Of a DNA stretch of 43,670 nt, positions 1,753 to 35,407 are shown piece by piece. The DNA comes from Fragilaria crotonensis (taxonomy: Eukaryota; Bacillariophyta; Fragilariophyceae; Fragilariales; Fragilariaceae), in assembly GCA_022925895.1 (NCBI GenBank), contig JAKSYS010000531.1, positions 1-43,670 of the forward strand, read 5' to 3'. A model generated the notes under the pieces. The model was not told the origin of the DNA. It saw only the letters and a program-made list of their open reading frames with translations, and searched no databases. The position numbers and the translations under genes are program-made. Within the stretch, counting starts at the first letter, position 1. Each line of letters begins with the position of its first letter.

Positions 1753-3721
1753 CTATAGTTTTGCCGTGCTATCCTTGCGAATGGTTGTTGAAAGTCCATT
1801 CTCCTCCGGCTTGAGAAGAGTGTTGATCACGACGGTGGACATTTCTGCGAGTTCCTTTTGAACTACATCTCGCGAAATTCCTGGTTTCCCTTTCATTTCC
1901 ATGTAGTACTTGAACTTGGGTTCAGTTCCACTAGCTCGGAACTGAGCGACGCAACCATTCGTAAACGTTAAAGTCAACATTGGTGAGGATTCAGAAGTTG
2001 GTAGAGTTGGCTTTTTATCGGGCGAGGTGGAATCGTAGCCTGGTTCCCCCAAGTCGCGAATCGATTCGATTCGGTAGGGACCCACCGCAGTGAGATAAGT
2101 ACCATCATTGCGAATATCATTAAAGATCTTCGTAATGACAGATGGGTCTTTGTAGAAGTAGTATCCATTGTTGCTAACGAATTCGCCGTATTTGAGGTAT
2201 AGATCTTTCAGGTGAGACACGAGACTTGACCCTCGACTGTAGACACTGTACGTAAGCTCCGCGAAAACTCCAAGGGCGCTGATACCATCCTTATCGAAGA
2301 TGACATCACCGCAGCAAAACCCAATTGCTTCTTCGTAGCAGAAGATGGAGCGATACTCTCCGGCATTCAAGGCTGCGGCACGAGATCCAATCCATTTGAA
2401 ACCTGTCAATGTGTCTTCAAAATAAAAGCCTTCGACACGGGCCATTTCTGCAAGCACCTTAGACGAGACTACGGAAGCACACATGGCAATGGGCTACCCA
2501 TGGAAGAGACACGGGCGTGAGATTTGACAATTCCGGATTGAGGAAATACGACGGAAACCGAGGAGCAAAACTGCATCGTACCTTGTCGCTCGTCTTGCCT
2601 ATTATTTCCCACAACCAGCTGCCCAACAAAGCACCAATCTGATCACCGGTGAAGACAGTCCATTCTCCAGTCTCTCGGCTTCGTTCCGCGACAGCGAGTC
2701 GATCTGCATCGGGATCATTGGCCAAGACAACATCACATCCTTGCAGCTCTGCATGAGATTTCGCCATGTCCAGCGCTCCCTTTTCCTCCGGATTAGGGAA
2801 GGATACAGTTGGAAAAGAAGGGTCGGCTTCCTCTTGTTGCGGAAGCGACACGAATGGTGGTAAGGCAAAGACTGAAAATACACGTTTGGCGAAGGGAAGA
2901 CCGACTCCGTGCATGGCAGTGTAACAAAACTTGGGAGGCTCCATTGTCGAAGGGCATTGGCTTGCTTGGCCTGATACAAGACCACTCCCCACAATAGCCT
3001 CAAAATACTTCGTTTGCAGTGAATGAGTCAGTGTTGCATCCGCCAAACCCAATGTTGGACTTCCACCGTGCTGCATTCGGCGTTCCGCGAGCTTTTGTCG
3101 ATAGTCCACCCAGGGCGTCAAGTTCTCCATTATCGATTTCGCGATACCTTTATCAATAGGTGGTCGAATCTGGCATCCGTCACTCCAATAAACTTTATAG
3201 CCATTGTCTTCTTTCGGATTATGCGACGCCGTCACCATGATTCCAGCTGCGGCATTAAGTCGTGTCGTGCAAAAGGGAATCATCGGTGTTGCTGTAAGAC
3301 CTTCGAGGAGGACGCATTCAATACCCGCTTGCTGAAAGACCAGAACCGACAAGATGGCGAAGGACAGCGACGAAAGCCCCATATCGGAATTAGAGCGATG
3401 GTCGTAACCAATGACAATCTTCAACTTCTCCGTCACTGGATTCTGTTCCTGGCAGTATTTTGCAATCCCCTGCGCCGTTTGCAAAACGACAAGATCATTC
3501 ATCCGCAACGGACCAATATTCATTGAAGCTCGCAAGCCAGCTGTTCCGAATCCAATACGGCTGTAGTCATCTGGAAAAAGTATAGAGAGTTCTTTCTCGG
3601 CGTTATCGTCACCACGTTCGACACGACCAAGAAGATCGCGAAGGCAAATCGTTGTCGTTTCGTTGGGATCCCAACGACACCATTCTTGTGCTCGTTCTAG
3701 GGTGACTTTTGAGATCACCAT
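1753..3721 (-). CDS. PGM2: Phosphoglucomutase-2 / phosphopentomutase family
   Basis: Interconverts hexose or pentose 1- and 6(5)-phosphates through a phosphoserine enzyme, linking nucleotide-sugar or nucleoside breakdown with central carbon metabolism; no targeting peptide is seen, so probably cytosolic. Exons are 3721-2582 and 2493-1753, with an 88-base GT-AG intron (2581-2494, phase 0). The protein is 626 residues, close to the 610-625 usual for PGM2. The active serine lies in TASHNPK (residues 164-170), the metal loop is DPDADR (336-341), the sugar-binding loop contains CYEEAIGF and the C-terminal phosphate loop is RASGTEPK. GTAGLRA near residue 59 is typical of the PGM2 subgroup rather than classic PGM1. 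The start at 3721 has a good context (caccATGG); a longer upstream open frame lacks family similarity. The frame is unbroken. Substrate preference (glucose versus ribose phosphate) cannot be told here. Confidence 0.94.
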
Positions 3722-4264
3722 GGTGAAATATATCAGGAGAGGAGGTACAATGATGATGCGGAAGGACGACAGAGCGACTGAGAATGACAACAATAATGGT
3801 GCGTTTGATTTGTTCCTTCTGAAACGAACTCCTACGTATGTTAACCCGCTGATGTGGATCATGGTATCGGGTATCGGGTTCGTACTTGTATGTACCGATA
3901 TGCTGCATAGTTGGGGCTTCGTACAGTACCGACGGCAGTAGTAGCAGCACTCCCTACGAGAGAGTATTACCGCTTTACCTAGTACAAGCACGTATGACAT
4001 ACAAGTACCAGGAAAGCACTCCCTTGAGGACGTTTGTACTATACGGGACTACGACACTGATACAGGAAGTACTGCTCATAGCAAGCCTGTTAGCATCAAT
4101 TCAAATTTTGGGGAGACGGGGGCGGGGCTGCAAACAAGATTCGGCTTTTTGGGAGTCATTTTGGAGGCAGATGTTGACCCTGCCTGCGCGTCCTCACTTA
4201 GTCCGGTGCTCAACATTCTGTTGTATACCATCAAAAAGCCTGCTCCACACGAATCCGGCAAACC
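3722..4264. promoter_or_regulatory. Divergent promoter region, PGM2 / calmodulin-like
   Basis: The 543 bases separate the divergent starts of PGM2 (minus) and the calmodulin-like gene (plus), so both promoters should lie here. Repeated GTAC words occur between about 3880 and 4070 (gtacttgtatgtacc, gtacagtac, agtaccagg). No gene is seen. Open frames crossing the region are extensions or shadows. Confidence 0.5.
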
Positions 4265-9099: not shown

Positions 9100-9765
9100 T
9101 ATATCCAGCCAATTGTGGTACCATTGTAGGTATGGATTGGAGATGAATTTGCTCCAGATGGGTCAACCAGCCTCCGAATGATCGCACCGGGAACATCCCT
9201 TTCATCGAATACTCTCTTACCCAGTGGAATGGCACAACATTTCTCCAACTGTTGCATCCAACAGAAGGTTGAGCAGATCACAACACATCAGCCAGATTTT
9301 ATCTGCAACTTTGCTGTTGTGCATCCTGGGGCCTGTCTTTAGAACTTCTTGCCATTGTCCTCAGCCTCTTGTCAATATTCCAAATACACACTTGACATCC
9401 TTTTGCAAGGATTCAAGCCATTGTGAGAATCGAATCTCACTGTGATTCATAGAATGTTTCAGTGGAGGCACAGTAGTAAGACATTTCAGGTTGCTGTTGT
9501 CTACAATGACATTTGCACCCTTGATCATGATAGCCCGTCCACATTTGTTTGACAGAACAAACAACATCGTGAATCAAACTTGCCTGCTCGGAGTTGCTGC
9601 ACCATGAAGCCGTCAAATTGTATTAGAGTTTTATCATTCAACCTTCCAGAGTGGCCTGGCGTGGTGTGCAATATCTTGCAACAGTGATTGACTGTCGAAT
9701 TGTATGTACAAGTGATGCAAGGCGTCTTGTAGTATTTTAGCCGAGATGGCTTGCCTTAATCCAGT
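9100..9765 (-). pseudogene. PIF/Harbinger-type DDE transposase remnant
   Basis: Read from right to left it keeps hallmarks of the Harbinger/'plant transposon protein' DDE family in several frames. These are a SGRLNDKTLIQFDGF block (the family's GR-NDK motif) near 9680, VDNSNLKCLTTVPPLKHS, then HSEIRFSQWLESLQKDVKCV leading into FGILTR (the family's R..E..FG.L block), and VADKIWLMCC near 9300. Stops and shifts break the frame throughout. The 5' part of the gene is missing: similarity runs to within a few tens of bases of the TTAA at 9766, where the piggyBac-like element starts, and I see no continuation beyond 13763. Not functional as read. Confidence 0.75.
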
Positions 9766-9769
9766 TTAA
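9766..9769. repeat. TTAA target site duplication, left
   Basis: TTAA immediately precedes CCCCAGT and matches the TTAA at 13760-13763. Tetranucleotide TTAA duplications are specific to piggyBac-superfamily insertions. Confidence 0.85.
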
Positions 9770-10020
9770 CCCCAGTGCGAAAATTCCGTGCGACAAAAAA
9801 GACGACAAAATGTTGAAACCCAATAACAGAGGAACAACCCACAACCATTTGATTCTGAAAAGTGCGATCTGTAATGCTTTTAACCTTCTTCCTACATCTG
9901 TGAGGATAACTTCCTAATCATGATGCTCGCAAAGTTACAACATTGCAAACTTCATCAATTTTTTTTCGGAGTTCGCACGAGTTTGTCGCATGAAAAAAGC
10001 TAGCATGCGACAAAAAAAAA
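9770..10020. repeat. Left terminal and subterminal repeats of the piggyBac-like element
   Basis: CCCCAGT at the tip is followed by GTGCGACAAAAAA (9788-9800). An inverted pair then occurs: TTTGTCGCATG (9982-9992) and CATGCGACAAAAAAAAA (10004-10020), with GCTAGC between (9999-10004). The same words recur at the right end, so they are good candidates for transposase-binding sites. Confidence 0.75.
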
Positions 10021-10077
10021 TACGACTATTGAAAAATTAACACGAGGAGACTCGCATTGACACAATGATGTTCAGTC

Positions 10078-13000
10078 TTAAAACCGCCGTATTGGAGCTC
10101 TCCTTGGTCTCAGCGATCTCCGAAGTCTTCGTGTTACCACAGGAGTAATCCGAGATCGAACTCTGCGAGGAGCAGGTGGCTCCTCGTTTTCCTGAGAAGA
10201 ATCATCTGGATTCACTGAACCTCGATTCGGAGGTGGTGGTCGGTTTCGATGCGGGATGACGTGAACCACAGCATCCATCTCGGCTGTGCAATAGTCTACC
10301 AATGATCTGCTTGTATGAAATAACTCATGGCAGCTCATGCCGTTGAAACGCTTGACACGACAAAGGCTGACCATGCACACAGGACACATGAACTTCGTCG
10401 TACGACCATGCCTGCAGTGCTTCGGATCTGGTTGATCATGCCTCTTTCTGCAGCACCAGACACAGCTTGTTGGTTTCGATTCCACTTTGCATAGAACATG
10501 TGGCAATGACTGGTCCAATCGTCTTTGAATCATCTCGCGACTTGTGAAGTACAGCTCGCGCTTGTTGTATGTAAAAGACCTTCCGCTTGTGTTCAGAACA
10601 CTTCCTTCTCCCGTCTGCTGGATGCTGATACCACCATCATCTCCTCCTTCACTGTCGCTGCTGTCATCACCTGAAACCTCGAGTGTTAGGTCTTTAGCAA
10701 GAGAACTGCAGAACTTTGAAAAAGACCCATACAGCTTTCGGTGTGCCTGGAATGCAGCATACGAATTGCACCCATCACTTAGCAGGAATGCAACAGAGCG
10801 ACTGAGAATGTAGCTCTGATATGCATTATAAACTCGAGACATCAGAAGACGAAGCCATATGTGTGCCAATGGTGAGAGCTGTGCATGCCGAGCATGGCAG
10901 TTCTTCATGTACCGCGAGAACACATCAACAGGACCTTTGCTTCGATTCCACATTGCTACAATGGTCGGAATCAACATGCGTCCTGCTGGCAACGGTCTGC
11001 CCGGGTCTTCACAAGATTATAGATTGCTCTCCATAGTTCCAACGTATTTTGAACAGTGTACTCGTCAACTGCATGCCTCAGCTTCATTCCTCCCAAACAC
11101 GGTAAACGACCATGAAGTACCCAGGAAAGCTCACGATCATGTACCTCTTGCAATGCACATCGATATTGCTCAACCACCTGCTCATCAACATTCACATGAA
11201 CAACACGAATTATCTTGTGCAATGATGCCACCACATAGAAAGCATGTCGCAGATTGCCACATGCAATGCCATGCAACAATTGACACCTGTACTCGGGCTC
11301 AGGAATCATTCGTTTAAAGTCGTCGTTCGTAGGAGGATCCGTCATAACAACATAAATCGTTGGACACGTGCCGTAGGTCCTGGCCAATGCGGTCTCTTTC
11401 ATTACTGTTGCGGGGGGTGCATTTGCTCTTGATCTCCACTATGAAAGGAATACCTTCGTCCTCGCCAAATATGTTTTCGTTCTCCGCAACTGCAATCGCA
11501 TCGGGCGAGAATGCTGCATAGAACATACCTTTTGCACATAACAAGCCATATTCCCTGATATGTGTCACAACGAAATCGCTTTCCTGATCAAGAAACAGGG
11601 GAAGTCTTGACAATACATTTGACTCATTGAGGGTACCTTCACGCATTGAGGTCGATGAGGCAAAGGGCGACATAAACCACTTCTCCAGAAGAAGTTCCAG
11701 TATTGGGCATTCCCCGTTTGACTGATCAGATCCTCCCCATGAAAGCACTCTATCAATGAGAATTGTTTTGCTCCCTGTCACCAGCAGAGATTTCGCTCGG
11801 CAAATATCTTTTAGGTGTGCAACCGACAACCCCACTAACTCATGTCTACTGTAAATCCGATCAGCCACAGCCTCATTTGGAATGAGTTCATTCGAGCATT
11901 TCAACCCAAGTATTTTACAGCTTGACAGGATATTGTGCGACAGCTCCCCCCTCCACTGGTGACACTGGCGGTGTAACGAGCCCGATGCGCATAGCGCTTC
12001 CATAGTGCAAGAGCAGTGGTTCCAGTAATTTGAAACTGACGCTGGTTGAACCATTCTGGAGATCGTTGCGTATCTGTCAGCTGCTCAACATGGTCTGCTT
12101 CAAACAGTCTAATTACTTCATCATCTGTAGGTTCTGGAGCGACATCGCATCCTCGTTGTCGGGTTACAAGGGTAAACTTTCCCGGTCCGTACCTGTCATC
12201 AGTCGTTTGCATGAGAACCACCCGGCCTAAGCCGTTTCGACTGGCCAGTGCATATTGATGTGTAACTCTTGAACCATTTCTTATCGCCTTCGTAGCCCAA
12301 TAATGGGCTGATGCACCTTTCTCTGCAATAAGCCGCCGGTCTGGGCCCGGATGTTGGTCGTATGTAAAAGGGAACGATCGCATTCTCTTTGTTGTTCCCA
12401 AAAGCATAGCTCCAACCGACACACTCCACTGGTTGACTTCTCCATTCACTCCACCATATCCTCGATCCCAGAAGAAAGTGTTGCCATCGAGTCGGATTTG
12501 CGATTCGGATGATACGCCTGTCATACTCCTCTGCAATATTTTCACACAGTCCAAAGTTGACTCACCCCGAGCTGCAACATGCCCGCCAATATACAAACCA
12601 GTGACCACTGACACTGCTCCATGATGAATGACTCCTAACCCTTTGCAGGGGTTGTTGATCTGTGAGAACCCGTGATTGATGACCCTCTTTGATCGCATCC
12701 GAAGTAAGTCATCGTCCAAACCAACTTGGGTCACTCCTGCAACAAAAGCTAGCTCTGACCCAGTTGAACGAACAATTTCCATTGCTGCAGCCATTTCTCT
12801 GTCATGCTGCATAGGAGGTGTCAAGTTGATGCTGATTCCTGCCTTGAAGTGCCAGACCGTGACAAAGCCTTCAAGATCTCTCGGTATCGAATGAGGTCCA
12901 TACCCTGTCCTGCAGATGGAAAATTTGCTCGCTCATCCATATCAAAGTACAACGAAGGGGAGACTCGGTAGAATGAGAGCATCAATTCAATCCGAATGAA

Positions 13001-13392
13001 GGCAAGTATCTCTGAATTCGAGACGGAATCCCAAGATAAGTTCTTATTGATGAATTGCTTGATATGTCCCAGCAAATTAGCATCCATCCACGCCTCTAAA
13101 AACGAGCAGGTTCAACCTTCCACAGATTCCTGACTCTTCCGCCAAACATCTTGGCTTTCAGACGGTTAAGGACAATTGGTACCTCCTGGCGGGCCACCTC
13201 CAGCAGATGTCGGTCTACTACATCGATCTCGATAGTTGTCTCAAACTCTCTGATGAAGTTCCATTCTCCTATCGGTTCCTCATCGTCGTCTGCATCATCC
13301 AAATCAGCATCACCAGCTGAACCAGACATCAAATACATCATATCCTCAAGATCAGAGTCACTTTCATCGCCACCATCACTGTTGTTTGACAT
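10078..13392 (-). pseudogene. piggyBac-like transposase with embedded SAP-YqaJ nuclease (frameshifted)
   Basis: Starts at 13392 with an acidic N-terminus (MSNNSDGGDESDSDLEDMM) and ends at 10078. Blocks in order: DDE_Tnp_1_7-like helices (NSEILAFIRIELMLSFYR, then MDLIRYREIL); first Asp block QVGLDDDLLRMRSK; second Asp block FFWDRGYGG followed by LLGTTKRMRSFPFTYD; a SAP-YqaJ nuclease region; third Asp block IPTIVAMWNRSKGPVDVF, matching the piggyBac YN..KGGVD motif; then a Cys/His domain (CVWCCRKRH ... CPVCMVSLC ... CHELFHT) and an Arg-rich tail. The blocks lie in six consecutive open frames. One added base at each of 13098-13102, 12868-12869, 11946-11951, 11412-11417 and 11003-11005 would join them; four are homopolymer runs of three or more and one is a GG pair. 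All five need an addition, so sequence error is a fair alternative to decay. Total length would be about 1,100 residues, roughly twice a usual piggyBac transposase. Confidence 0.8.
11010..12110 (-). other. SAP domain within a YqaJ/lambda-exonuclease-like nuclease, inside the transposase
   Basis: After the second Asp block the protein enters RSPEWFNQRQFQITGT, the W...R....TGT opening seen in YqaJ/lambda-exonuclease proteins. A SAP motif follows (LSVAHLKDICRAKSLLVTGS, then KTILIDRVL), a DNA-binding helix-extended loop-helix. Next come EGTLNESNVLSRLPLFL, then SPDAIAV and, about 15 residues on, PFIVEIKSKC: the D...ExK catalytic signature of PD-(D/E)XK nucleases. YRCQLLHGIACGN and FYVVAS fit the family's Q-containing helix and final strand. 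The catalytic residues appear intact. Two single-base shifts (11946-11951, 11412-11417) cross the region. Activity and role in transposition are inference. Confidence 0.75.
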
Positions 13393-13651
13393 GATTGAGG
13401 GACCTTTCAAGAGCAAGAATTGATTTCTTGTTGATGCAATGGCGGGTGCTTGTTGTTGCTGCGCACTTCAAAGTGCACATACACCTCTGTATGAGGGTCT
13501 ACAGATAATACCTACCGTATGTAGAACCTACAGTGTACAAAGACCTGAACTTTTAGTACGGAGACAGGGTGCACAACTGGTCTCTGGAATGCATGCAAGG
13601 GGCAACAAGGGAACTTCAATTGTAGGCATCAATGAGAATCGCTGAAAAACA

Positions 13652-13759
13652 TTTGTCGCACGAAATTTCTCGCTAGCTTTTTCGTAGGACAAAAATTTTG
13701 GGATATCCCAAAACTCGGAAGATTTTTTGTCGCATGCCATGCGACAAAAAATACTGGGG
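13652..13759. repeat. Right terminal and subterminal repeats of the piggyBac-like element
   Basis: TTTGTCGCA (13652-13660) and GCTAGC (13672-13677) mirror the left end. They are followed by the perfect 18-base palindrome TTTTGGGATATCCCAAAA (13696-13713) and a 13-base-arm hairpin whose arms are TTTTTTGTCGCAT and ATGCGACAAAAAA (13723-13751). The element ends ACTGGGG at 13759. Confidence 0.75.
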
Positions 13760-13763: not shown

Positions 13764-14057
13764 GTTACGCTATTTACGGTAGTAGACTAGTACATAGTAC
13801 TGTAGTACTCTGGGAGTTCCAGTACGATTTACAGCACCGGAACCAGATTGTGCTTCACATTACCGGCATAGTATGACACTGGTCCAGCTGCCGCATTCGC
13901 CCGCATTCGTCGACCTCGAAACTCGAACCTCACCTAACGGTTTCGTCTGTCTGTCGGCAAAACCCGAAACCCCAATTCATACTGGCACCATGCAATCCTC
14001 AATGAAAAAAAAAATCCGACACTTTTGGCCCTCCTTCAGCATATTATGTTCGTGACG
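13764..14057. promoter_or_regulatory. 5' flank of RRP45
   Basis: The gap contains gtagtactctggg and other GTAC words at 13790-13830. The rest is unremarkable. The promoter of the following exosome gene should lie here. Confidence 0.4.
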
Positions 14058-15662
14058 ATGTCGTCAACGACTTACATTTCCATTCGCGATGATGGCCGAT
14101 CTCTATCCTCAAACGAGCGCAACTTTGTTCGGGAAAGTGCCTTCTCATCACGTCGGATTGACGGTCGCGGTCCTGGTGATCTTCGCAAGATCAAGCTCCA
14201 CCTGAGTCGCAAAGAAAACGCTGCGGAATGTACTGTGCAATGGGGCGAGACAAGAGTTTCTGCCGAGATAACTGCTTCCCTCCAACCACCGCCGTCAGAA
14301 GATAGACCTTCCGAAGGTATGGTGAGTATAACAGTCGATATCAGTCCAATGGCATCGTCAGCCTTTGGTATGACACAACCACTAACCACAACTCCTGGCG
14401 AAGGCAATCGAGCAAATTTCGCACCGACCGCGGATGATTCGCAAAAGCTGCTGGGTAACCGCATATTGAGATGTCTTGAACGAACGATAATGCTGGGAGG
14501 TGCCCTGGACACTGAAGCCCTCTGCGTTCAATCGGGGGCTTGGGTGTGGAAGCTATCCCTATCCGTGAAAATATTTGATCACGGTGGGAATCTCCTAGAC
14601 TCGGCAGTCATGGCTGCCATGGCCAGCTTAAGACACTATCGTAAACCACAAGTGGACGTTGTGGAAACTGGAATACCTATTTTAGTCCCCTCGGATACTC
14701 GAGAACCAACTCCCCTGCCTCTGCATCATACACCTCTTAGTATGTCCTTTGCCCTGATTCATGCCGACGACGTTGCACTCTCCTCTTCATCAACATTGAC
14801 GGTTGCTGCTCTGGTTGATCCAACGGAACGAGAAGAGCTGGTTCAAACTGGATCCATATCTATCGCCATGAACTTGCACGGCGAAGTCTGTCTGCTAGAT
14901 TTTGGTGGAGGATGTGAGTTGCAACCTTCTCAACTCAAACGATGTTGGCAATTGGCAGAGCGATGCGTCAAACAGCTGTGCCAGATGCTCGAAACCTCCT
15001 TAGCAGAGGCCGATAAGAAGGCGCAGCGTGAGCGATTGCATAGATTGCAAGAGGAACAGCTCGGTGGTTTGATATCTCCACAGCCACATGACCAACCGGA
15101 GGTACCCTTTTGGTCAGAAGATGGTGATGTGGTGGTGGATACTGCAAGCCCGTTTGCTGATGCAACGCGTGAGATGCATACTGCGGAAAGTAAGGTCAAG
15201 GATCTGGAGCAAGAGAATTATCGACTGCAGGCATTGGAATACAATCAGGGGCATGTTGCTGCTAAGGTGAAGGAGAACGACAAGACAAGGAAGAAGAAGC
15301 AAGAAGGCAGCACGTTATTAACCGCTATGCTCCAGTCCGTTCAAAAGGCTTCCGATGTAGGTGTTGCGTTTCAGGTGAGCACGCAGACTGAGGGTGTGAA
15401 AGCTGAATCCGTGTCAACCGAACTCGCTTCCGACGAACAAATGGATGAATTCGCGAAGTTTGCCACGGCAGCCAAAGCTAAGGTCGACATGGATATTGAC
15501 GATGACGACGAGGAAGAGGAAGCCCCAGTGATGCTCAAGACAGAGTTTGAGTCTATCGCGCTAACAAAGGAATCGACAACAGTTGGTGTCGCCGATGGCG
15601 ATGATGTTGACGACTTGGCCATGGCAATCAAGAGTAAATCGAAAAAGAAGAAAAAGAAATGA
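14058..15662 (+). CDS. RRP45: Exosome core subunit RRP45/EXOSC9 (RNase PH fold)
   Basis: One of six RNase PH-like subunits forming the ring of the RNA exosome, which processes rRNA and degrades RNA in nucleus and cytoplasm; the eukaryotic ring itself is usually inactive. From the ATG at 14058 the protein is 534 residues (an in-frame ATG at 14046 would add four). It begins MSSTTYISIRDDGRSLSSNE, then RRIDGRGPGDLRKIKLHLSR and WGETRVSAEITASL, the RNase PH N-terminal signature. GALDTEALCVQSGAWVWKL, DSAVMAAMASLRHYR and LLDFGGGCELQPSQL mark the two RNase PH subdomains, to about residue 305. The remaining 230 residues are a charged coiled coil with acidic clusters and a terminal KSKSKKKKKK, probably a nuclear signal. 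Human EXOSC9 also has an extended tail. The frame is intact. Confidence 0.93.
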   Translation: MSSTTYISIRDDGRSLSSNERNFVRESAFSSRRIDGRGPGDLRKIKLHLSRKENAAECTVQWGETRVSAEITASLQPPPSEDRPSEGMVSITVDISPMASSAFGMTQPLTTTPGEGNRANFAPTADDSQKLLGNRILRCLERTIMLGGALDTEALCVQSGAWVWKLSLSVKIFDHGGNLLDSAVMAAMASLRHYRKPQVDVVETGIPILVPSDTREPTPLPLHHTPLSMSFALIHADDVALSSSSTLTVAALVDPTEREELVQTGSISIAMNLHGEVCLLDFGGGCELQPSQLKRCWQLAERCVKQLCQMLETSLAEADKKAQRERLHRLQEEQLGGLISPQPHDQPEVPFWSEDGDVVVDTASPFADATREMHTAESKVKDLEQENYRLQALEYNQGHVAAKVKENDKTRKKKQEGSTLLTAMLQSVQKASDVGVAFQVSTQTEGVKAESVSTELASDEQMDEFAKFATAAKAKVDMDIDDDDEEEEAPVMLKTEFESIALTKESTTVGVADGDDVDDLAMAIKSKSKKKKKK

Positions 15663-17079: not shown

Positions 17080-17886
17080 GGTTGTCGGTTGTCGGTTGTT
17101 GGTTGTTGGTTGTTGGTTGTCGGTTGTCGGTTGTCGGTTGTCGGTTGTCGTCGGTTGTCGGTTGTCGGTTGTTGTCGGTTGTTGTCGGTTGTTGTCGGTT
17201 GTTGTCGGTTGTTGTCGGTTGTTGTCGGTTGTTGTCGGTTGTTGTCGGTTGTTGTCGGTTGTTGTCGGTTGTTGTCGGTTGTTGTCGGTTGTTGTCGGTT
17301 GTTGTCGGTTGTTGTCGGTTGTTGTCGGTTGTTGTCGGTTGTTGTCGGTTGTTGTCGGTTGTTGTCCGGTTGTTGTCGGTTGTTGTCGGTTGTTGTCGGT
17401 TGTTGTCGGTTGTTGTCGGTTGTTGTCGGTTGTTGTCGGTTGTTGTCGGTTGTTGTCGGTTGTTGTCGGTTGTTGTCGGTTGTTGTCGGTTGTTGTCGGT
17501 TGTTGTCGGTTGTTGTCGGTTGTTGTCGGTTGTTGTCGGTTGTTGTCGGTTGTTGTCGGTTGTTGTCGGTTGTTGTCGGTTGTTGTCGGTTGTTGTCGGT
17601 TGTTGTCGGTTGTTGTCGGTTGTTGTCGGTTGTTGTCGGTTGTTGTCGGTTGTTGTCGGTTGTTGTCGGTTGTTGTCGGTTGTTGTCGGTTGTTGTCGGT
17701 TGTTGTCGATTGTTGTCGGTTGTTGTCGGTTGTTGTCGGTTGTTGTCGGTTGTCGGTTGTCGGTTGTCGGTTGTCGGTTGTCGGTTGTCGGTTGTCGGTT
17801 GTCGGTTGTTGGTTGTTGGTTGTTGGTTGTTGGTTGTTGGTTGTCGGTTGTCGGTTGTCGGTTGTCGGTTGTCGGTTGTCGGTTGT
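17080..17886. repeat. Minisatellite: (GGTTGTTGTC)58 with mirrored heptamer flanks
   Basis: The core is 58 head-to-tail copies of the 10-mer GGTTGTTGTC, 17167-17366 (20 copies) and 17368-17747 (38 copies). They are separated by a single extra C at 17367, and one copy has G to A at about 17709. Both flanks are built of 7-mers: on the left GGTTGTC, then GGTTGTT, then GGTTGTC again; on the right GGTTGTC, GGTTGTT, GGTTGTC. The plus strand has almost no A. Because neither unit creates a stop, three long open frames (300-400 residues of Cys/Val/Leu/Ser repeats) run through it; they are artefacts of the repeat. Confidence 0.97.
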
Positions 17887-34016: not shown

Positions 34017-35407
34017 ATGAGTGCACATGCCAACGCAGTGTTGTTACGGTCGACCTTGACAAGTTTTATCAGCAGAGCAACGGCATCGCGCTGGTCCTGT
34101 CAATATGGAATCGAAAGAAACAGTCTGATAGGTCCAGCGAAAGTGAAAAAGGCCGCCACAATACAAATAGCAGCATACCCGAGGAACTCCGTGACGAGCA
34201 ATTGTCGCGACACACGCTGTACTTCGGCGATGACGGCATGGAACGACTTCGAGGTGCAAAGATTGTCGTTGTTGGTCTCGGTGGAGTGGGCTCTCATGCG
34301 GCCCATATGCTGGCGCGATCTGGGGTTGGTCACCTGCGAATGATTGACTTTGATCAAGTCTCACTGTCGTCATTAAACCGTCATGCTTGTGCAACTCTTG
34401 CCGATGTAGGAACCCCCAAGGCAAGCTGCATGAAGCGATTCTGCGAGCGTCTATGTCCTGATCCAGAATACTTGGTACTTGAAGACATCGTGCAAATGTA
34501 TACCGCAGAAACTGGACCCCAGCTGCTCGATGGTCACGATTGGGATTTGGTAATTGATGCCATTGACGACATTCCCACCAAGGCGGCCTTGCTGGCACAA
34601 TGCATGAAGCTCAATGTACGAGTCATTTCCTGCATGGGTGCGGGTGGGAAGTCTGATGTCACTCGTCTCCACATTTCGGACCTTCGGACTGCCAGTCGCG
34701 ACCCTCTGGCCAGCAAACTTCGCCAATCCATCAAACGTCTGCTACACGGAGACACGTCATACATGGATGATATGGAGAAGCTGACGGTGGTGTATAGTTC
34801 GGAAAAGACCGTTGTCAAGCTAGCGGATTTTACGGATGAGCAAAAGGAGCAAGGCGTTCATCAATTTGGTGCTGTCGACGGCATGAGAATCCGTATCATA
34901 CCTGTGTTGGGCACCATGCCTGCAGTGATGGGACAGACTCTTGCCGCCACGGCACTTTGTGAGCTAGAAATAAGCCTTTCGCCCCTGTCACTGGAGAACG
35001 AGTTGGTCGCAATGTTCGGAACCGTATTTTTCAACACGCGAAGCGGCGCGAGCTGAAGATAAGAATCAGTAGAAGGTGTCGTCCCAGCAACCGAGCATGG
35101 CGACGATGAGAATGACATGGAAGGCCGAATTGTCAATGGAATTTGGGTCAGGCCTATTCAGATAGACGGAGACGACGTTGAATATCTCCTCGAGGTCTGG
35201 AGAAACCGATGCGGTGTCACCGGAGATAAGCTTGGGACTGTTTTGGAGCTTGTTCGATGGGATCTGACAAAGCCTTCGAGATGCGACAACTTGGTCCTGA
35301 TGGGATGCAGAGCACTGAAAAAGTTTGATGTCGACAATCAAGAAAGCGTGCCTGAGAATGTCCGCCAGAAGATTGAACAGCGACTTCGATCGTGTCGCAT
35401 CGATTGA
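34017..35407 (+). CDS. TCD1: tRNA threonylcarbamoyladenosine dehydratase, TcdA/Tcd1-type (frameshifted)
   Basis: An E1-like ATP-dependent enzyme that cyclises t6A at tRNA position 37 to ct6A. The core reads at 34202-35056: LSRHTLYFGDDGMERLRGA, the nucleotide-binding GLGGVGSHAA, DFDQVSLSSLNRHA, DAIDDIPTKAALL and PVLGTMPAVMGQTLAA. The C-terminal domain typical of yeast Tcd1/Tcd2 follows in 35117-35407 (DDVEYLLEVWRNRC ... LELVRWDLTKPSRCDNLVLM). Between the two are an in-frame TGA and TAA, bridged by a coding-like adjacent frame, so at least two indels lie between 35040 and 35075. The likely start is 34017 (MSAHANAV); a further single-base gain near 34040 would bring it into a frame with DLDKFYQQSNGIALVLSIWN. 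That would give one N-terminal membrane segment, as in the yeast outer-mitochondrial-membrane enzymes. Core identity is firm; ends are less so. Confidence 0.88.

Follow-up and report, generated by a model that had tools for sequence, protein, structure and literature searches.

The stretch of DNA analysed here (the window) is the whole of contig JAKSYS010000531.1 of Fragilaria crotonensis, 43,670 nucleotides in length, which is contig C483 in our searches of the 62.1-Mb, 881-contig genome. It carries a transposon of the piggyBac superfamily, whose gene runs on the minus strand from its start, MSNNSDGGD, at 13392 to its end at 10081. Our analysis supports the view that a lambda-exonuclease-type PD-(D/E)XK domain, itself bearing a SAP domain, is embedded in this gene between the second and third catalytic aspartates (D2 and D3) of the transposase, and of the architecture itself we are close to certain. 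The gene comprises the following parts.

10078 to 13392, minus strand: transposase-nuclease gene, frameshifted in the window copy, in six collinear pieces against the intact relative P0013
12854 to 13392, minus strand: acidic N-terminus and first half of the helical dimerisation/DNA-binding domain (tblastn to P0013 1-174)
12836 to 13087: Pfam DDE_Tnp_1_7 match, over cut-off
12699 to 12725, minus strand: block of the first catalytic aspartate (D1), VGLDDDLLR
12450 to 12476, minus strand: block of D2, FFWDRGYGG
12201 to 12221, minus strand: VVLMQTT, strand in the piggyBac-type insertion domain that precedes the nuclease
11025 to 12100, minus strand: embedded lambda-exonuclease/YqaJ nuclease (limits approximate, mapped from P0013 423-774)
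12048 to 12065, minus strand: nuclease opening motif RSPEWF
11737 to 11835, minus strand: SAP domain nested in the nuclease
11617 to 11637, minus strand: nuclease GTLNE motif
11491 to 11511, minus strand: nuclease catalytic SPDAIA
11422 to 11439, minus strand: nuclease catalytic VEIKSK (ExK)
11265 to 11285, minus strand: nuclease CQLLHG (Q motif)
10924 to 10947, minus strand: block of D3, NRSKGPVD
10309 to 10467, minus strand: Cys/His-rich tail

A first-pass annotation, made from the letters and their open frames, had proposed this order of motifs on the minus strand; we found each motif where it had been placed, and the same order unbroken in relatives. The annotation was also right that a nuclease with a SAP domain separates D2 from D3, but the insert measures about 380 residues rather than 370 (D2 to D3 spans 505 residues in P0013), and SAP is nested in the nuclease, where it separates the first helices from the core. 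The window copy deviates once from the family pattern, with QITGT instead of RITGT after SPEWF.

The five indels noted at the same time are real in the assembly: P0013 aligns to the window gene in six pieces, in frames -1, -3, -2, -1, -2 and -1. None of the eight near-identical copies (the window copy and seven close copies) has an unbroken frame, and their frame changes are partly common to several copies and partly private to one. The published F. crotonensis SAG 28.96 assembly combines Nanopore R9.4.1 data with short-read polishing, according to PMC9476933, so that indels in repeated DNA can be explained. The frame changes may represent assembly error, decay or both.

The transposase core and its nuclease insert

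In the predicted structures, the transposase presents an RNase H core with its three aspartates in piggyBac topology. The match to piggyBac (6x67) extends to chain residue 429 of the first model; in the second, a strand at 323-327 is followed by strands 356-403, corresponding to the insertion domain after the fifth strand. As modelled, the DDE core is complete and closed around the nuclease insert. DDE_Tnp_1_7 scores over its cut-off, in the N-terminal part of the protein only, in the window, L013, P0013, P0015, P0028 and P0030, and not over it in L059, L060, P0009, P0010, P0012 and P0021. Matches to this family on both sides of the insert, which the first-pass annotation had named as support, were therefore obtained on the N-terminal side and not beyond the insert, where the transposase was recognised by structure in the proteins scanned. 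The Cys/His pattern of the tail is conserved, with zf-Tnp_2 matches below cut-off in L061 (E 0.0036) and P0009 (E 0.0035).

The insert has a predicted lambda exonuclease/YqaJ fold and carries the SPD...ExK catalytic residues and the Q motif of these enzymes. A profile of 10 core sequences matched Mimivirus R354 (E 0.007) with SPDG and ExK aligned; a RecE-like exonuclease PHROG was matched by five of the 10 core members (best 4.4e-4), and DUF5365, a Pfam domain of unknown function, by two of the 10 (best 4e-4). In a search of predicted viral proteins, the top match was a phage exonuclease, the second a giant-virus IS4-type transposase and the third and fourth YqaJ exonucleases, so both halves of the protein are recognised there. 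Motifs and predicted models together show the nuclease, with its nested SAP, in the loop after the insertion domain, just before the D3 helix.

Relatives, conservation and history

Pfam scans of pieces of the near-identical copies returned DDE_Tnp_1_7 (E 6.4e-6) and SAP (E 1.3e-6), which, with the unbroken order in relatives, places the observation beyond chance. A genome search with such pieces yielded three diverged relatives, L059, L060 and L061, whose frames stay open through the insert. L059 (1,041 amino acids) and L060 (995 amino acids) hold D1, D2, nuclease, SAP, D3 and tail within one frame, while the open frame of L061 begins just after D2. The frames of L059 and L060 start at an exon boundary, with about 140 N-terminal residues upstream of a GT-AG intron that the window family lacks at this position. 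This intron, of about 100 bp (about 4529-4630 in L059 and the matching place in L060), lies well outside the nuclease.

Protein database searches, which scored only the ~8,000 candidates with the most words in common per search, returned 17, 30 and 53 family members among the candidates scored. Six are complete (P0009, P0010, P0012, P0013 and P0015, of 1,066-1,130 amino acids, and P0021, of 1,195), and the order of motifs is identical in all six; many of the remaining matches are fragments on short contigs. These proteins come from several sources, and divergent families keep the order in open frames, with full-length members 35-47% identical to the reference. Pfam calls no SAP domain in P0021, where the region looks degenerate. 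The family gene models named Fragilaria crotonensis include MHU86_1600, MHU86_10528 and MHU86_5018; the five that we met are hypothetical proteins of 282-711 amino acids, and this shortness is probably why the architecture stayed hidden.

Within the genome, the nuclease core matched 25 loci (a count that excludes five weaker loci matched only by a longer query). All 25 are embedded in a transposase, with its N-terminal part upstream and a C-terminal part reaching D3 or beyond downstream, on the same strand. Residues were counted in an alignment of 54 rows, some of them mutually close relatives, omitting at each site the rows without letters nearby. The transposase aspartates are kept in 45/46 (D1), 39/45 (D2) and 14/15 (D3) rows, and the nuclease residues in 20/23 (E583, in GTLNE), 17/18 (D624), 17/17 (E642), 17/17 (K644) and 15/16 (Q689); the tryptophan of the opening motif is present in 29 of 29. 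The first-pass annotation had left room for a refutation, either by a YqaJ region found only as a separate gene or later insertion, or by loss of D, E and K in all copies. Neither is what we see, and the two features it had hoped for, a DDE core closing around the insertion in a structural model and the same architecture elsewhere, were found in the predicted structure and in several divergent proteins.

Between the window family and four families about 70% identical to it, dN/dS ranged from 0.05 to 0.15 over the N-terminal DDE part, from 0.15 to 0.30 over the nuclease and from 0.13 to 0.33 over the C-terminal part, rough values given that dS is close to saturation (1.1-3.0). Stretches under 60 residues were excluded, 5 of 19 stretches were dropped for saturated dS, and some stretches overlap. 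As judged from these ratios, which do not give its exact strength, the data show purifying selection. Trees of the transposase and nuclease parts of 13 proteins have 6 of 10 splits in common. Two of the remaining splits are strong in one tree and contradicted only weakly in the other (the position of P0013, 0.98 versus 0.48, and that of L059, 1.0 versus 0.71). The trees thus appear compatible with a single old acquisition, and some later exchange may also have occurred.

The element, its ends and its surroundings

The element as a whole is delimited as follows.

9770 to 13759: whole transposon, 3,990 bp, with CCCCAGT...ACTGGGG ends and TTAA on either side
9766 to 9769: left target-site duplication, TTAA
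13760 to 13763: right target-site duplication, TTAA
13753 to 13759, minus strand: terminal inverted repeat CCCCAGT at the gene's 5' end, with its partner at 9770-9776
13722 to 13752: perfect 31-bp palindrome just inside the gene-proximal end (15-nt arms, 100% complementary, 1-nt spacer)

The palindrome is a candidate binding site for a dimeric Cys/His tail. Besides the window element, the genome holds six near-full copies of 98-99% identity whose two ends are matched within a few bases, one of them beginning at a contig edge, together with an eighth copy on C261, a 95% fragment on C437 and derivatives of about 1.4 kb. The copy on C261 (L016/L017) is interrupted by about 8.7 kb of other DNA. 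The short derivatives (L025-L030 and L038) keep both element ends and are too short for the gene; they probably moved in trans. The 22-bp element end has 29 genome matches at two or fewer mismatches, against none for the reversed control pattern.

Among 13 end pairs from the window family and the short derivatives, seven have perfect 4-bp duplications (TTAA four times, and TTAG, TTAT and CTAG once each) and six are mismatched (L013, L014, L025, L028, L030 and L038). The distant relative L059 has TTAG at both flanks. Of the eight elements with perfect duplications, L059 included, four therefore have TTAA and the other four (L011, L015, L027 and L059, with TTAG, TTAT, CTAG and TTAG) depart from it at one or both of the outer bases. 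Canonical piggyBac accepts hardly anything but TTAA, which suggests that target choice is relaxed here.

The left flank of the window element (9620-9769) belongs to a repeat of which there are four other copies, 80-84% identical. Nearby are ordinary nuclear genes, for phosphoglucomutase (1756-4000, over two frames), an RNase PH family protein (14025-15659) and a ThiF family protein (34202-35053), and a tandem array of about 74 copies of a 10-bp unit (17095-17851) lying within overlapping long open frames.

Known systems and possible roles of the nuclease

The element shares with piggyBac and piggyBat (PDB 6x67, 9c0f) the helical DNA-binding domain, the RNase H core with DDD, the insertion domain after strand 5 and CCC-type ends; the Cys/His tail and the 4-bp TTAA-type duplication may be further common features. 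It differs from them by the ~380 extra residues of nuclease and SAP between the insertion domain and D3, and by the half of its perfect duplications that are not TTAA. Teratorn, a piggyBac-herpesvirus fusion, is a single element with both a piggyBac transposase and a gene for an alkaline nuclease; there the virus is carried between the ends and the nuclease is a separate gene. Unlike lambda exonuclease, YqaJ and RecE (PDB 3sm4, 3sz4; Mimivirus R354, 5yeu), the nuclease described here is not a separate protein but lies inside another enzyme, has an internal SAP domain and scores below the Pfam YqaJ cut-off.

KolobokE, as described in PMC9587614, is a eukaryotic DNA transposon that targets TTAA and has a lambda-exonuclease-like PD-(D/E)XK nuclease, but it belongs to another superfamily, has 5'-RR ends and carries the nuclease downstream of the transposase domain, whereas our element ends in CCCC and has it between D2 and D3. 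The eukaryotic transposons ISL2EU and PHIS have a Harbinger-like transposase and carry a YqaJ exonuclease in a separate, second ORF (PMC4482050 and PMC9179366), as the first-pass annotation had noted for ISL2EU; in L059 and L060, by contrast, the nuclease shares one frame with D1 to D3. In the open-licence literature (Repbase reports and most subscription papers lie outside this scope, and long listings were covered in part), we found neither a piggyBac with an embedded YqaJ/lambda-exonuclease domain nor any transposase with a lambda-exonuclease-type domain inside its catalytic core.

What could a nuclease do at this place? The element is best read as a cut-and-paste DNA transposon of the piggyBac superfamily, with a single protein predicted to have two DNA-cutting sites, and the role that we favour for the nuclease, while giving it somewhat less than an even chance, is resection of the donor break. 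Lambda-type enzymes resect 5' strands from DNA ends. The DDE site would excise and integrate in the piggyBac manner, while the nuclease, attached to the domain that lines the target DNA channel in piggyBac, would be held at DNA outside the transposon and act on the flanking donor or target DNA that the insertion domain holds. Once the element had been excised, the nuclease would load on the broken donor site and resect its 5' strands, removing the short overhangs that piggyBac uses for seamless religation. The break would then be channelled into homologous repair, copied from a sister or homologue in which the element is still present, restoring the donor copy and raising the copy number. It is conceivable, though doubtful, that the enzyme is in this sense a 'cut and resect' transposase, whose one complex breaks and resects the donor site so that transposition is donor-restoring and effectively replicative, the insertion-domain site of DDE enzymes serving as a socket for a whole second enzyme.

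Several points weigh against this interpretation or its premises. The repair role would follow entirely from the behaviour of lambda-type enzymes and the placement of the domain. Lambda exonuclease is a ring of three (entry 1avq is titled 'toroidal'), and a nuclease held in a transposase dimer may or may not be able to form one. The single copy tested yielded no empty donor site. Pfam YqaJ remains under its cut-off in the two of 10 core members that it matches (best E 0.015) and in P0015 (12.7 bits against 22), with nothing over cut-off in the genome; at the sequence level, the resemblance to five ordinary piggyBacs of this genome is weak except in the N-terminal part; and the near-saturated dS belongs here as well.

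Chance or artefact, in which a dead transposase received an unrelated gene or misassembly fused two genes, might be suspected from the frameshifts in the window copy and all seven of its close copies, but the open frames of divergent families, the database proteins from several sources and the embedding at every nuclease-core locus leave it with practically no probability: intact relatives refute it. Alternatively, the nuclease could process a transposition intermediate, opening or trimming hairpins on the excised ends or trimming flanking nucleotides, and so replace part of piggyBac hairpin resolution. This is unlikely, though the relaxed duplications (4 of 8 perfect ones not TTAA) would fit it, as would the 6 mismatched end pairs of 13, expected from occasional end trimming; piggyBac hairpins are resolved by the DDE site, which is intact here, and the mismatches may be assembly errors or decay, the far end being altered in two of the six (L025, L030).

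The fold might instead be a DNA-binding module that, with SAP, anchors the transpososome on AT-rich DNA at the target or in the flanks, cutting being irrelevant. SAP domains do bind AT-rich DNA and a location on the insertion domain suits target contact, but the catalytic D, E, K and Q are kept (17/18, 17/17, 17/17 and 15/16) at only 35-47% identity to the reference, and we consider this improbable. Equally improbable in our eyes is that the nuclease makes single-strand ends for single-strand annealing or for recombination of the element's circular or tandem forms, in the manner of phage Red and perhaps aided by an annealing protein of the host. Lambda exonuclease does have an annealing partner, and one of the top structural matches includes the Red beta C-terminal domain; however, we noticed no gene for such a partner within the 4 kb of the element, where no profile search was aimed at one.

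Where DDE transposases have insertion domains, these share one position, following the fifth strand (PMC7351741). In the family described here, this site is occupied by an entire second enzyme, different in nuclease fold and with a SAP motif nested in it, and the arrangement has lasted through deep divergence. Lambda-type nucleases were recruited by ISL2EU and KolobokE too, so the benefit of recruiting one may be general. Since seamless excision is what piggyBac is known for, an end-resecting nuclease built into such an enzyme would be predicted to shift repair measurably from religation to the homologous route, and the element offers a natural test of the long-standing question of whether transposons steer the repair of their own breaks.
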